Origin: Pelosinus fermentans JBW45
GTDB taxonomy: Bacteria; Bacillota; Negativicutes; DSM-13327
NCBI RefSeq assembly: GCF_000271665.2
Contig: NZ_CP010978.1
Coordinates: forward strand, 5,166,501 to 5,230,500
Direction of reading: 5' to 3'
Length of the DNA stretch: 64,000 bases
This document shows positions 10,732 through 26,691 of the stretch, in pieces. The notes under the pieces were generated by a model, which saw only the letters and a list, made by a program, of their open reading frames with translations, ran no database searches and was not told the DNA's origin. Each line of letters begins with the position of its first letter. The first letter of the stretch is position 1. A program made the translations under genes and the position numbers.

Positions 10732-11424
10732 TTACTTATTGCTTGCGCCTGTAATTAATTCTCTTTTTGTATGTTTTTCTGCTACCGCAGCCGTTTCTTC
10801 AATGCCAGTAATAATATGCTGCATCGACATTTCAATATTTCCTAAGATATCATTAATCTTTTTGGTTGCCTCTACACTATCTTCCGATAACTTGCGGACT
10901 TCAGTGGCTACGACTGCAAAGCCTCTGCCATGTTCGCCTGCCCGAGCTGCCTCAATCGCTGCATTTAAACCAAGTAAATTCGTCTGCTGGGATACCTTAT
11001 TAATAAAATCAATCACTTCGTGAGTATTATTAATATGACTTTTAGCTTCACTTACGGATTGTGATAACACAGCAACCTTCTCATTCAATTCTTCGCTCAT
11101 TAAAACCTGAGATTTAATTAAATGGTACAGCATACCCGTAATAAAATCATCTACCACTTTAACATTCGGCGATTTATATTCTTCAATTAATTGATTTACT
11201 TTCTGATTGCCGGTAATATTCAGCACTACATTAACTATTGGCATTTTAAGACCGTCACGAACATCTGTAAAGGTACGAATTCCTAATCTTTGTGCCAGTT
11301 GTATTGCTACAGCATCTGATTTTACATCCACAACCCCGACAACTTCTATGTCCGGTACTTGACTCACCATTTCTATAATCCCAACGCCACCTCTACCGCC
11401 ACCAACTAACAAAATATTAATCAC
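10732..11424 (-). CDS. Soluble Rossmann-domain / chemoreceptor-signalling fusion
   Basis: A 230-aa cytoplasmic protein. The N-terminal half is Rossmann-like ([18 protein letters not shown], then [22 protein letters not shown]), resembling NAD-binding or homoserine-dehydrogenase-type domains. The C-terminal half is a short chemoreceptor signalling hairpin with the tip [31 protein letters not shown]-type sequence. It has no TM or HAMP region. I start at GTG (11422-11424), with GGAGGC 6 nt upstream; the longer frame to 11508 has no ribosome site. The fusion suggests metabolite or redox sensing fed to a CheA/CheW-like complex, but the ligand is unknown. It sits 64 bp upstream of the NamZ gene on the same strand. 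Confidence 0.8.
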
Positions 11425-11673
11425 ATATTCGCCTCCCAATATTGTTACAAAGCCAAGCATTCTCTTATGATATATTATACTATAAATCTCCATTATCCAC
11501 ATCAGCATATTTTCATTGTTTTTTCTTCCCTACTATAGTAAAAGAGGGGGATCTTTATAAGTTTTCCTATTAAACAAATAAACCAAAAAGGATTTTTCTC
11601 TTACTTCTTAGAATACTCATTAGTCTAAGAAGCATATGACTATATTTCAATTATTAACGAAAGGAATGAAGTG

Positions 11674-17741: not shown

Positions 17742-18929
17742 TCAATCCTTTTTCTTCCCTAATTGACGGGGCCACTTGCCACTCCATTTATATTTAGCAT
17801 CACTATTTTTAGTATCAATTACCTGTACTGTAGAAGAGCTATCATCCTCTTCAATCAGGATATCCTCTAGAACTAGCTTCTCTTCCACGGCTTTTCCTTT
17901 GCTCTCAAAATGACTATGTTTTTGTTCCTTATTTCCTTTTACTTTATTACTGATTTTCGCTTGTGGTGCTTCCTCTACTTTTGGCTCTCTTTCTTTTGGT
18001 TCTGGTAAAACCTCTTCTTCTCGCCCCGAATTCATCATACCAGGTATAGAGCATTTTTCCAGATCTGCAAGGTTAGATATCGAAGAGGGCTCATCACAGT
18101 ATTCTAACGATGCAGCCGTTGTGTTCTTCATAATTCCTTTTTCCATCATTGTCAAAATTAAGAGAAAATGATCGGCTTCTCGCCTTACATGATCGGCTAG
18201 TAGAGCCGGGATCAAACCGACTAACCGACACTCTCTGATCATCTCTTCAGCAGCACGTTTAAAATCCCTAATGCGCAACACAGCAGCACGAACATCCTGC
18301 AGGAAACGTTTGAACGAGGCCACTTCCGGATAGCCCTGCAGCATACTAGAAAAGTCACGACCTTGCAGATAAAGGTCATCAAATTCTTGAGAAAAACTAT
18401 TCGCTGTTTGAATTAGGTTCCGCTCTGACGGATCTAACAAATGACTAATAAATTTAGCATGGTCTGCCATAATTCGCAGCCAAAATACATTTTCCTGGGC
18501 CTTTGTGCCCCCAGATAAAGCCACTTTTCCATTTTTAATTTTATCTAACAGGCGCATAAAATACTCGGCTTCGCGAGCCATATGATCAAGAAGTAACGGA
18601 AAGTTATAGCCACCCAGCTTGCACTCTAACATGCGATGTAATAAATCACGCTTAAACGTATAAAACTCTTTTAATAAGGCCTGGGTGTCAGTCACTAGCT
18701 CCATGAATTTCTTGTCATTTTGCAATCGCTCTGCCCGTACGCGCAAAGACTCAAACTCCTGGTAAAAAGCTTGAGCATCATCAATAAAATCTTCCTGATC
18801 ACAAGGCAGCCCCGACTTAATAAATAAAGCATGCTCTTCCATAATCCGTATCCAAAATTTTACTTCTTCTAAGTTGAGTGGTTCCAAGGGCTCAGGAACC
18901 ATATATGACATGAGTTGACGCGACGACAT
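17742..18929 (-). CDS. Double DUF2935 domain protein with charged C-terminal tail
   Basis: 395 aa. Two helical-bundle DUF2935 repeats are clear: EEVKFWIRIMEEHALFIKSGL... HMAREAEYFMRLLD and ENVFWLRIMADHAKFISHLL... HVRREADHFLLIL. Each has paired E-H and H-x-x-x-E motifs like a di-metal or ferritin-like four-helix bundle. Members are common in spore formers and of unknown function. Most are about 260 aa; here a Glu/Lys/Ser-rich tail of about 125 residues (after about 270) is added, ending in a basic KWPRQLGKKKD. ATG at 18927-18929 with GGGAGAG upstream; the GTG nine codons earlier lacks a site. Confidence 0.85.
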   Translation of the reverse strand: MSSRQLMSYMVPEPLEPLNLEEVKFWIRIMEEHALFIKSGLPCDQEDFIDDAQAFYQEFESLRVRAERLQNDKKFMELVTDTQALLKEFYTFKRDLLHRMLECKLGGYNFPLLLDHMAREAEYFMRLLDKIKNGKVALSGGTKAQENVFWLRIMADHAKFISHLLDPSERNLIQTANSFSQEFDDLYLQGRDFSSMLQGYPEVASFKRFLQDVRAAVLRIRDFKRAAEEMIRECRLVGLIPALLADHVRREADHFLLILTMMEKGIMKNTTAASLEYCDEPSSISNLADLEKCSIPGMMNSGREEEVLPEPKEREPKVEEAPQAKISNKVKGNKEQKHSHFESKGKAVEEKLVLEDILIEEDDSSSTVQVIDTKNSDAKYKWSGKWPRQLGKKKD

Positions 18930-19033
18930 AGCAACACTCTCCCTTTTTGATCCCACTACACATTTATTACATTCTATGCCGAAACTTTAAATTCTGTCAT
19001 AAAAAAATGGAACCTGGCAGTTTTATTTTTATC

Positions 19034-22136: not shown

Positions 22137-23933
22137 TCAAGTACGATACTGATTGATATCTTGCCCGAAATGCTGGATTACAACCTTAAATTCACCAATT
22201 TTCCCCATCATATCTACAAGCTTGTCATTATAAATCTGAACTGATGCACTGACTTCCTGACTCGCTGCCGAATTCTCCTGGGAAATTGCTGCCAAGGACT
22301 CAATTTTACCATACACCTGCCCAAGTCCAGTCATCTCATATTCCAATTTTCCAATCATCTCTACAATATTCGTAGCAACATTCTGTACATTACCTACATG
22401 GCGGCTATTACTAGCTACTACCTCATTGAGCTGATGACTTTCCACTGCCAATACATCATATTCTTCCTCAATCATCGATACCACACCACTAATAATCTCC
22501 ATTAAAATCTTAAGATCACTGGTAATACTATCCGAATGATGATGCGACTGCTCTGCTAATTTGCGTACTTCTTCTGCTACAACAGCAAAACCTCTGCCCT
22601 GCTCACCGGCCCGTGCTGCCTCAATCGCAGCATTGAGGGCCAATAGATTGGTCTGTCCTGCAATCGCTGCCACCATCCCCGTAATTTCCGTAATTTTAGC
22701 AGCTTGGGACTGCAGGTTATTGGCCGACTCTTTCACTTCAGCGAATTTCTCCAGACTATGCTGTAACTTAGATCCCGATGTCTCTACCTCTCGAAAACCT
22801 TGATTAATTTCCGATACGGCTGCTTCTAGTTGTATTTTGTTACGATTTTGCTCTACGACAAAGGTTTTTAACGTCTCTAAATTACCACTTAAAATACCAA
22901 CTGCCTCAGTAGTCTCAATAGCCTGATTACCAGCAGCAGTTGCTACGTCATACACCACGCCGGAAATACCCCGGGAAGTATCCTTCATTTCATCAGCTAA
23001 TACATTAAAGGTATCCGCATATTTATTCATTTCATCGCCAGTACCTTTAAATCCTACAAACTCACGCTTTAATCGTTTTTTATACAAGGATAAGCCTTGC
23101 ATAATACCTTCGAACTCATCACCAGTATAAAGATTGGTTTCATGGAAGTACTTGCGCTCCTGCATATTTTGGAGTTCTTCATGGATCGCAGCAAAAGGTG
23201 TTAACAAAAGGGAAGATACAATCCCTGCAATCCCCCCACTAACCACAGCTGACCATAAGGGAACAGAAACACCAAACAAGGCTAATATCCCATTTGCTGC
23301 AGCAGTCATGAGAGCAACCGCTACGCCGATCTTGACGGGCAATCTTTTGATAAAACCAAAAGATAACAGCTGATTCACACGATATTTTTTATTATATGTA
23401 ATAGGTTTCGAGAACCGAATTTTTAATTTTACATGCTCAGCAGACTTTTCCAAGACTTCTGTTTTAATCTCTTCCTTAAAATGCTCTGCACCACCGAGAA
23501 GAAGACCATTGAGATAACCAAACATCCCTCGTTTTGATTTATAACTAAAAATTGCCTCATATTCTGAAATGGGTTCAATTAAAATCTCTGGCGGATTAGC
23601 ACCTGGAATTCGTTGTACAACAACTACATGCACATCATACATGGATCTAAGAAAAGAATACAAGGTCTCCTGCTGAAAAAAAGCTGGATAGACAGCTAAG
23701 AAAGCTCTAACGTTATCTTTCCCAATGGTTAACCAAATGTCATCCTCTGATTTGTCTAAGGAAGTCGCCAAAGAGGTTATAAACTTTTTGACCCCATTGT
23801 CCTCAACGTCTTCCGTTGGGCCAACAATACGATCCTTCGCCCATCCTGCACTCGCCATTGCTTTGTTGACCAAATCCTGGCCCCACGCATTACGAGCAGT
23901 ACTGATCCAAGTGGCAACAACTGTTCCCTTCAT
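22137..23933 (-). CDS. H-NOX (heme gas sensor) methyl-accepting chemotaxis protein
   Basis: 598-aa transducer. Residues 1-185 are an H-NOX domain that aligns without gaps to the Thermoanaerobacter H-NOX chemoreceptor as I recall it: proximal heme ligand His102 (MYDVH), Pro115, heme-propionate motif Y131-x-S133-x-R135 (YKSKR), and distal-pocket Trp9, Asn74 and Tyr140. That Tyr/Trp/Asn trio is the O2-stabilising type. Two TM helices follow (about 210-260), then a chemoreceptor signalling domain with tip [23 protein letters not shown]-type sequence. I choose ATG at 23931-23933 (start MKGTVVATW), with GGAG 8 nt upstream; a GTG three codons earlier is less likely. Predicted role: oxygen or NO taxis in a strict anaerobe. 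Confidence 0.93.
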
Positions 23934-24094
23934 TCCTATCACTCCATTTTAAATATATAACAGTATTTTCTACATTGCATCGTGATGTTGTATATAGCAT
24001 TTCGCCATATTTTTACAAAATCCTGCCTTTAAAAATGTTTATCCATACCAGCTAGGAATAGAGGAGTGCTATCTCTTAATAAATAATGTCTAAA

Positions 24095-24112
24095 CTGTGA
24101 TATTCGTCACAG
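24095..24112 (+). promoter_or_regulatory. Crp/Fnr-type operator upstream of the siroheme reductase gene
   Basis: CTGTGATATTCGTCACAG is a two-fold symmetric TGTGA-N6-TCACA box, overlapped by GTCACAGACTGTGAC. A TATAAT -10 hexamer lies at 24132-24137. With a start near 24144, the box centre falls at about -40.5, the class II activator position. Confidence 0.7.
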
Positions 24113-24175: not shown

Positions 24176-24841
24176 ATGACAATACCATTAGCAAGCATAC
24201 CCTTTCTAAACAAAAAAATTAAATTCCCCGTAACACCCCACATACCTGGTGGTTTAACTACCGCTGCTCAACTTAGACAAATTGCCGATATCGCTGATAA
24301 ATATAATGGATCATTAAAGATAGTGGGAAATACGATTACGATTATAGGACTTAACCTTGCAGATGGAGAAAAAGCCATAGCCGAACTTGGCTGCCAAGGT
24401 GAATCTTTCATTGCAAAACAAGTACGTGCCGTTGCTTTCTGTCCTGGAAAACCCGACTGTCCTAGAGCGCTGCAAGATAGTACAGGCTTAGGTCTTGCCC
24501 TGGACAAAGAATTCTTCGGTCAAGAATTACCCAGTAAGCTGCGCATTGGTGTTAGTGGCTGTCCAAATTGCTGCATTGAACCATTTGTTAAAGATATTGG
24601 CATGTATGGCACAGCCAAAGGATATACCTTAGTGGTCGGCGGCAACTCAGGCTTTTCTGCACAAATTGCAACCCCCGTCGCCGAAAAGGTACGTGCCGAT
24701 GAGATTACGTCTATCGTGAACAGCATATTAACCTACTTCCGCCAGCATGGAAAAAGCAAAGAACGCTTAGGACAGGTTATTGAAAGGCTCGGCTGGGATC
24801 ACTTTTCACAAGAAACAATACCAGAGAATTATCGGAAATAA
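24176..24841 (+). CDS. Small siroheme [4Fe-4S] sulfite/nitrite reductase-like protein
   Basis: 221 aa. A ferredoxin-like half (IPGGLTTAAQLRQIADIADKY) precedes the siroheme/[4Fe-4S] motif, with Cys residues in CPGKPDCPRA and GCPNCC (Cys-x5-Cys and Cys-x3-Cys). Length and layout match the low-molecular-weight assimilatory-type sulfite reductase of sulfate reducers and similar NirB-like single-domain enzymes. The electron donor is not encoded next to it. It stands alone behind a strong ribosome site (AGGAGGG) and the Crp/Fnr-type operator, which predicts control by redox, NO or nitrite. Whether sulfite or nitrite is reduced cannot be told. Confidence 0.82.
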   Translation: MTIPLASIPFLNKKIKFPVTPHIPGGLTTAAQLRQIADIADKYNGSLKIVGNTITIIGLNLADGEKAIAELGCQGESFIAKQVRAVAFCPGKPDCPRALQDSTGLGLALDKEFFGQELPSKLRIGVSGCPNCCIEPFVKDIGMYGTAKGYTLVVGGNSGFSAQIATPVAEKVRADEITSIVNSILTYFRQHGKSKERLGQVIERLGWDHFSQETIPENYRK

Positions 24842-25326: not shown

Positions 25327-26691
25327 TTATAATGAATGCAAAAACCATGTCACAGCCAACAAATCTGCAACGCCACCAGGACTGACATTTTCTTGAATAA
25401 ATTCTTGATCTAAAGCCTTACACCGATCCCGTCCATCACTAGTTTCCATACCGCCTGCCTCAATTACCATTTGCGCCTGTTCCCGAACCCATACTCTCAT
25501 CTTATCAGGATGATGGCGGTGCATGACGGTAGTATCATCTACGCAAGTCATAAGCACCAACAACGTATGTACTAAAGCGTCATTGATTGATAGCCCCTTA
25601 TCCAAGGCATCCCGCAAGGCCGGCAAAGCCTTATATCGTACCGATGGCAAACCTTCTGCTAATTCTCCACGAATACCCGTAATGCCATAGGTAACATATA
25701 AACGTTCTCCAGCAGTCAGCTCTTGCCCACTCTTATGAATAGCCCCTGCCAATTCTTTTTCTACAATCCCATTTACCATTTGTGAAGCATGTTCTAGTAC
25801 AGTGCTTTGCGTTACAGGCAATGAACGTCCATGAAGCCATCCAGCAATCCCCGTCATAATTCCGAGTAAAAAAATCAATCCCTTTTGCGTGTTAACGCCC
25901 CGAGTGGCCGCTAGCATCGCTTGTTCAGCTTCCAAACCGATAATTCTTAGTACTGGCAATAAGGCTTCTACAGTTCCTTCATGAAGAATCCCGGCCTGAG
26001 CACAACGATTCATATAACTGCCGAGAGAAGCTGAGCTTGCCATGAAACTATAAAAATCCATATCCTGATGAGCACCACTATTGATTCGGTCCACCAAACC
26101 TGGCGAGGGGGTACATGTGACTTCATATAACATAGCTTCAATCGCCAATGCTCCGATTCTTTCAGCAACAGGGCTAATACACCTGGTTTCATAGGCTCTA
26201 AATTGATATAACAGCTTTTCCACTACATGCAACAAATCCTGCATACTATGCCGTCCTTCTCGCCGGCACACTACAAATTCTCCGCCACAAACAAAACAGT
26301 TCCGCCCTTTCCCCTTATCCCGACGGGATAAGAGCATACCGGCTTGGTCAAATACATCAATATCCAATAGCCGAGAAAAAGCAAATGCCTCCTCAATCTT
26401 CTCCGCTGCTTTCTTGACTAACCACCCCTCATTGTCGATTGCAAGTAAGGCTTCCGGACCTGTTGATAGATTGATCTGCTCCTCTCCTAGGATTTCAAAT
26501 TGTTTTTTCACTTCTTGCGCAGCATAATCCCTAAGGCGTCTTAAGACAGGAGTGTCTTTTACTGCCCCTGGCACATTTAAGGTAATACTGACTATCGTCT
26601 CTTGATACTTTTCTTTAAACACTTGCTGCCTATTATACCTAGCTTCTTTTGCTGCTAAGACATCTTCTAATGTAACGAGCTTAGTTTTCAT
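25327..26691 (-). CDS. CitX-CitG fusion: citrate lyase holo-ACP synthase / triphosphoribosyl-dephospho-CoA synthase
   Basis: 454 aa. The N-terminal part (about 1-180) is CitX, which transfers the phosphoribosyl-dephospho-CoA group to the citrate lyase acyl carrier subunit: SRLLDIDVFDQAG and CFVCGGEFVVCRREGRHS are visible. The C-terminal part (about 185-454) is CitG, which makes the precursor: TCTPSPGLVDRINSGAHQDMDFYSF, ARGVNTQKGLIF and YGITGIRGELAEGLPSVR. CitX-CitG fusions are known. No citrate lyase subunit genes (citCDEF) are in the window, so it is an orphan here. GGAG lies 8 nt before the ATG. The NERD protein gene is 22 bp upstream. Confidence 0.9.
   Translation of the reverse strand: MKTKLVTLEDVLAAKEARYNRQQVFKEKYQETIVSITLNVPGAVKDTPVLRRLRDYAAQEVKKQFEILGEEQINLSTGPEALLAIDNEGWLVKKAAEKIEEAFAFSRLLDIDVFDQAGMLLSRRDKGKGRNCFVCGGEFVVCRREGRHSMQDLLHVVEKLLYQFRAYETRCISPVAERIGALAIEAMLYEVTCTPSPGLVDRINSGAHQDMDFYSFMASSASLGSYMNRCAQAGILHEGTVEALLPVLRIIGLEAEQAMLAATRGVNTQKGLIFLLGIMTGIAGWLHGRSLPVTQSTVLEHASQMVNGIVEKELAGAIHKSGQELTAGERLYVTYGITGIRGELAEGLPSVRYKALPALRDALDKGLSINDALVHTLLVLMTCVDDTTVMHRHHPDKMRVWVREQAQMVIEAGGMETSDGRDRCKALDQEFIQENVSPGGVADLLAVTWFLHSL

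Follow-up and report, generated by a model that had tools for sequence, protein, structure and literature searches.

An H-NOX-MCP chemoreceptor of Pelosinus fermentans JBW45, orthologous to the Thermoanaerobacter receptor and with a predicted O2-type pocket

Described H-NOX chemoreceptors and the Pelosinus gene

The closest described relative of the receptor reported here is the H-NOX-MCP of Thermoanaerobacter tengcongensis / Caldanaerobacter subterraneus, which we take to be the protein named 'Tar4H'. Its solved H-NOX domain (Tt/Ct/Cs H-NOX; PDB 1u4h, 1u55, 1xbn) is likewise the H-NOX domain of an MCP. In the portions of PMC8738867 and PMC9814294 that deal with strict anaerobes, their H-NOX proteins are described as carrying a distal Tyr and an MCP fusion, with a probable role in chemotaxis to O2; unfused H-NOX proteins, such as that of Shewanella, are NO-type in print. 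The relevant part of PMC7356049 describes a hydrogen-bond triad, Tyr140 with Trp9 and Asn74, and affinity is also held, in published excerpts, to depend on heme distortion, dynamics, and access besides the pocket residues. For the reference receptor, the text of PMC9814294 on this protein proposed O2 avoidance or metabolic adaptation, noted that the domain binds NO and CO too, gave a Soret band near 416 nm for its oxy complex, and in 2021 described the O2-sensor role in the anaerobic host as not yet demonstrated. No in-cell taxis test of any H-NOX-MCP was found in the literature searched, with most subscription journals outside its scope.

The DNA analysed (the window) is a stretch of 64,000 nucleotides from the single-contig genome (5,380,816 bases) of P. 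fermentans JBW45, and it carries the only H-NOX match in that genome. The gene (22137..23933, minus strand; 598 aa) was delimited from the open reading frame list, Pfam matches, and a GGAG stretch at 23942-23945. The start codon is the ATG at 23933, with the GGAG 8 nt upstream; the alternative GTG at 23942, given as the start in the open reading frame list, overlaps that stretch. The first-pass annotation, which had called this frame an H-NOX chemoreceptor, was correct: the N-terminus matches HNOB (PF07700) over residues 2-159 (E 1.8e-39; 135.7 bits against a curated cut-off of 25.5), and residues 386-565 match MCPsignal (E 3.2e-29; 22239..22778, minus strand), with the conserved hairpin tip at residues 438-449. 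The heme domain comprises residues 1-187 (23373..23933, minus strand) and contains W9, N74, H102, P115, the YxSxR motif at 131-135, and Y140. Between the two domains lies a hydrophobic stretch (residues ~198-251; 23181..23342, minus strand; Kyte-Doolittle windows >1.5) that is probably a two-helix membrane hairpin, predicted to lack a sizeable outside domain. The protein thus has both the MCP fusion (386-565) and the hydrophobic segment (198-251) of an O2-binding H-NOX-MCP.

The receptor is an ortholog of the Thermoanaerobacter/Caldanaerobacter H-NOX-MCP and one more member of a class of sensors known from anaerobes. A phmmer search against solved structures aligned it with 1xbn/1u4h (E ~2.5e-40), and up to and including residue 166 the alignment is gap-free; its residue numbers are therefore those of the reference H-NOX, as had been claimed of it. 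W9, N74, H102, P115, Y131, S133, R135, and Y140 all align, in agreement with the residues named in the first-pass annotation and the structural alignment that it proposed as a check. F78 and L144 also share their numbers with the T. tengcongensis domain; the two domains differ at positions 5 and 75 (V in the receptor, I at both in T. tengcongensis) and are ~35% identical. The proximal His and YxSxR motif that define an H-NOX domain are present (H102, Y131, S133, R135; invariant in 59/59 homologs of the class), as is the distal combination of Tyr140, Trp9, and Asn74 that marks the O2-binding H-NOX-MCP of anaerobes. Clostridium H-NOX-MCP (e.g. L109, L116, L117, L119-L122) are closer in sequence, at 48-52% identity over the domain, with the same MCP fusion and pocket residues.

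A predicted model of the H-NOX domain, built from 56 aligned sequences, had a mean pLDDT of 88.8. Its best fold matches by E-value were T. tengcongensis H-NOX chains (1e-19 to 1e-15), and the remaining H-NOX structures followed at 1e-11 and weaker. TM-scores overlapped, however, at 0.85-0.90 for the T. tengcongensis chains and 0.77-0.87 for other bacterial H-NOX, so fold alone cannot tell an O2-type from an NO-type domain.

Distal tyrosine and MCP fusion in sampled genomes

An H-NOX gene is present in 9/10 genomes of the receptor's family (the Pelosinus genome included) and in 59/380 genomes of its class, spread over 31 of 102 genera. In the phylum sample it was found in 40/398 genomes, one of these 40 being under the curated cut-off. 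Every one of the 59 class proteins is an MCP fusion of 577-601 aa, and W9, N74, F78, H102, P115, Y131, S133, R135, and Y140 occur in all of them. Judged by this conservation, the pocket residues are not due to chance, since they are invariant in 59/59 class homologs, yet only 31 of the 187 domain columns are invariant.

The whole set comprised 181 loci, of which 180 held 182 H-NOX frames, or 152 distinct ones; a weak match in one genome (G563, locus L181), below the Pfam cut-off and missed by the HMM, enters no count. All 141 distinct MCP-fused frames have Tyr at column 140. The full W/N/Y trio is present in 139 of them; the exceptions are two C-terminal pieces of broken genes, both gapped at W9 and one of them also at N74. 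Among the 11 unfused frames, column 140 is present in nine (L081, L085, L089, L170-L174, L176) and holds Tyr in none (L in 5, I in 2, F in 2); the two without this column, N-terminal pieces of the broken fused genes L175 and L177, stand outside the nine. These nine have the H-NOX fold in common with the receptor, and seven of them keep H102, P115, and YxSxR. Unlike the receptor, they have I, F, or L for the distal Tyr and no MCP domain in the frame. The broken genes themselves, from two other genomes of the phylum, are H-NOX-MCP genes split over two frames by a frameshift or an assembly error.

How the loci were gathered bears on these counts. Eighty named loci were collected by patterns containing W9 and P115 and hence provide no test of those two residues; Tyr140 and N74 were in neither pattern used. 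With the 80 named loci removed, Tyr140 was found in 59/59 fused proteins of the class, in 27/27 of the phylum sample (L060-L089), and in 2/2 broken genes (L170-L181). A tree of 145 frames separated the fused from the six unfused frames without error, with modest support (0.65); it omits the 7 of 152 distinct frames shorter than 140 residues, namely unfused L172-L174 and the four pieces from L175 and L177.

Among the sampled frames, then, distal Tyr with MCP fusion is a rule without exception. The survey puts numbers on a published dichotomy, in that the two features always go together. The first-pass annotation had added that most bacterial H-NOX proteins lack the distal Tyr; the unfused frames (0/9) and the published accounts cited above agree with this, within the scope of the Bacillota frames sampled. 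It had also presented the O2 pocket as a surprise in an anaerobe, which was unwarranted, as distal Tyr, MCP fusion, and anaerobic host form a described pattern.

Ligand and direction of the response

The O2-type pocket named in the first-pass annotation is backed by the alignment and by its conservation in the class and in fused frames, and O2 binding by this predicted pocket is well supported by homology. We consider it likely that the protein is a membrane-anchored, O2-binding chemoreceptor, with movement away from O2 as the likeliest outcome. This reading draws on the gap-free match to a solved O2-binding H-NOX, the top rank of T. tengcongensis chains among fold matches by E-value, the invariant pocket, the split of fused and unfused frames at Tyr140, and the corresponding split in the tree, and also on the output machinery of the host: the Pelosinus genome has 39 MCP-domain matches, 11 CheW-domain matches spread over 10 frames, three of them as long as a CheA (674, 689, and 884 aa), and three flagellin-domain matches. 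By homology, His102 and the YxSxR motif would hold a ferrous heme, O2 would bind on the distal side with a hydrogen bond from Tyr140, and Trp9 and Asn74 would keep Tyr140 in place. Ligand binding would then shift the H-NOX domain, a change that may be relayed through the membrane hairpin and a coiled coil to the MCP tip, where it would alter CheA activity and flagellar rotation; most likely the cell would leave O2.

The direction of that response is the less certain part. O2-avoidance taxis, as the first-pass annotation predicted it, is a reasonable inference already in print (in the part of PMC9814294 on the reference receptor); sequence does not reveal the sign of a taxis response, and NO is a ligand of the reference protein as well. 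The earlier interpretation is in effect the published one and is partly supported: right on the pocket, inferential on avoidance, and not new. Its description of the host as an apparent anaerobe has support at the level of the genus, as the passage of PMC6107796 on one Pelosinus isolate describes a motile, strict, fermentative anaerobe. The genome also contains one gene for cytochrome bd subunit I. A NorB-type NO reductase gene (L209 5323-7254; G000:C1 ~3519322-3521253) was found in this genus of fermentative anaerobes; it is the only NorB in the genome (E 3.7e-48 to a solved NorB), and the small cytochrome c gene upstream of it is probably norC. Two hybrid cluster protein (hcp) genes pass the NCBI cut-offs; two further Prismane-family genes encode CO dehydrogenases. 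With host genes for O2 (cytochrome bd) and for NO (norB and two hcp), either gas could be met by the cell.

The ligand in the cell could accordingly be NO, or NO together with O2, the receptor steering the cell from nitrosative stress. The reference H-NOX binds NO as well (PMC9814294, in its account of that domain), the host has NorB with its adjoining cytochrome c gene and the two hybrid cluster proteins, and the region between the receptor gene and its divergent neighbour contains a CRP/FNR-type site like those upstream of both hcp genes. We nevertheless regard this as unlikely: the pocket is of the O2 type, the Tyr is replaced by I, F, or L in the unfused H-NOX sampled from this phylum, and the site, as described below, tracks the neighbour and so says nothing about the receptor. 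A version in which the receptor answers NO as well as O2, the distal-Tyr pocket serving a two-gas stress-avoidance receptor, builds on NorB, on both hcp genes, and on the siroheme reductase encoded next to the receptor gene, with its CRP/FNR site of the hcp type; it, too, seems improbable.

An attractant response to O2, by which the cell would position itself as a microaerophile does and seek O2 traces for its cytochrome bd oxidase, appears unlikely. The bd subunit I gene speaks for it, but strict anaerobes also use such oxidases to scavenge O2. The description of a Pelosinus isolate as a strict fermentative anaerobe (PMC6107796, same passage) weighs against it as well, and the unreadable sign gives it no help. 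That the receptor is degenerate or non-functional has next to no probability, as the frame is open, every key residue is conserved, the gene occurs in 9/10 family genomes, and no evidence of decay was found. Binding of O2 with movement away from it remains the preferred reading, and a mesophilic, motile Pelosinus with one H-NOX gene would offer a convenient place to test the role of the receptor.

The divergent siroheme reductase gene and other neighbours

Divergent to the receptor gene, 243 bp from start to start, lies a gene for a single-domain siroheme nitrite/sulfite reductase-like protein with a NIR_SIR domain (24176..24841, plus strand; 221 aa), here labelled sirA. A CRP/FNR-type palindrome, TGTGATATTCGTCACA (24096..24111, no strand assigned), lies upstream of sirA, its end 64 nt from the start of that gene. 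Exact matches to TGTGA-N6-TCACA, this palindrome among them, number 7 in the genome, against 8 for a reversed control pattern; over the 10 family genomes the counts are 72 and 27. Each hcp gene also has an exact site upstream, ending 65 nt from one and 77 nt from the other, and a CRP-family gene adjoins one of the two. The remaining four exact sites have no obvious NO genes beside them, as judged by eye. The section of PMC1274295 on Desulfovibrio HcpR gives the consensus wTGTGAnnnnnnTCACAw, and the same paper, where it treats T. tengcongensis, reports a CRP-like site for hcp of that species also.

The site was looked for in 21 distinct stretches upstream of sirA: 12 contained it exactly, two with one mismatch, six with two mismatches, and one (L033) with four. 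Sites with no mismatch or a single one arose in no more than 0.6% of mononucleotide shuffles (500 per stretch), those with two mismatches in ~4-5%, and the four mismatches of L033 in 89%; by these rates the two-mismatch sites are individually weak and L033 is without a site. In three loci (L008, L231, L232) sirA and the receptor gene are separated, by 748 to 1921 bp from start to start, and the first base of the site still lies 80-85 nt from the start codon of sirA. A slightly looser pattern matched 10 of 140 distinct stretches upstream of receptor genes, all from Negativicutes, the class of the receptor. A site of an HcpR/CRP-type NO-stress regulon was thus not found to belong to the receptor gene in these stretches, as the site tracks sirA. 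Sensing of NO by the receptor, as argued from the CRP-like site, was rejected on the same ground of a distance kept to sirA when the genes part; the likely link to NO or nitrite stress is that of sirA and provides no evidence on the ligand of the receptor. We conclude that sirA is probably a member of an NO/nitrite-stress regulon, perhaps under control of the CRP-like protein whose gene adjoins one hcp gene. While sirA adjoins the Pelosinus receptor gene, it was not found in the available flanks of the Clostridium H-NOX-MCP loci.

Pelosinus, Sporomusa, and some other Negativicutes repeatedly have trmB, sirA, and genes for a sigma-54 regulator and a DUF2935 protein close to the receptor gene. 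Any of the four was present in only 26/130 loci, a count in which some genomes appear twice, some matches are weak, and some loci are short or ended by contig ends. A conserved partner gene for the receptor was rejected on this frequency, and the recurrence is read as shared synteny. In the window, the product of the DUF2935 neighbour (17742-18956, minus strand) is 404 aa long and contains two DUF2935 stretches; relatives in Pelosinus and Sporomusa likewise have this gene close to that of the receptor. A second MCP signalling stretch occurs in a 258-aa protein (10732-11508, minus strand), after an N-terminus that by eye is nucleotide-binding-like; this protein has no obvious membrane helices. 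On the other side of sirA, the frame at 25327-26691 (minus strand) is a CitX-CitG fusion, which joins citrate lyase prosthetic-group enzymes in a single chain.
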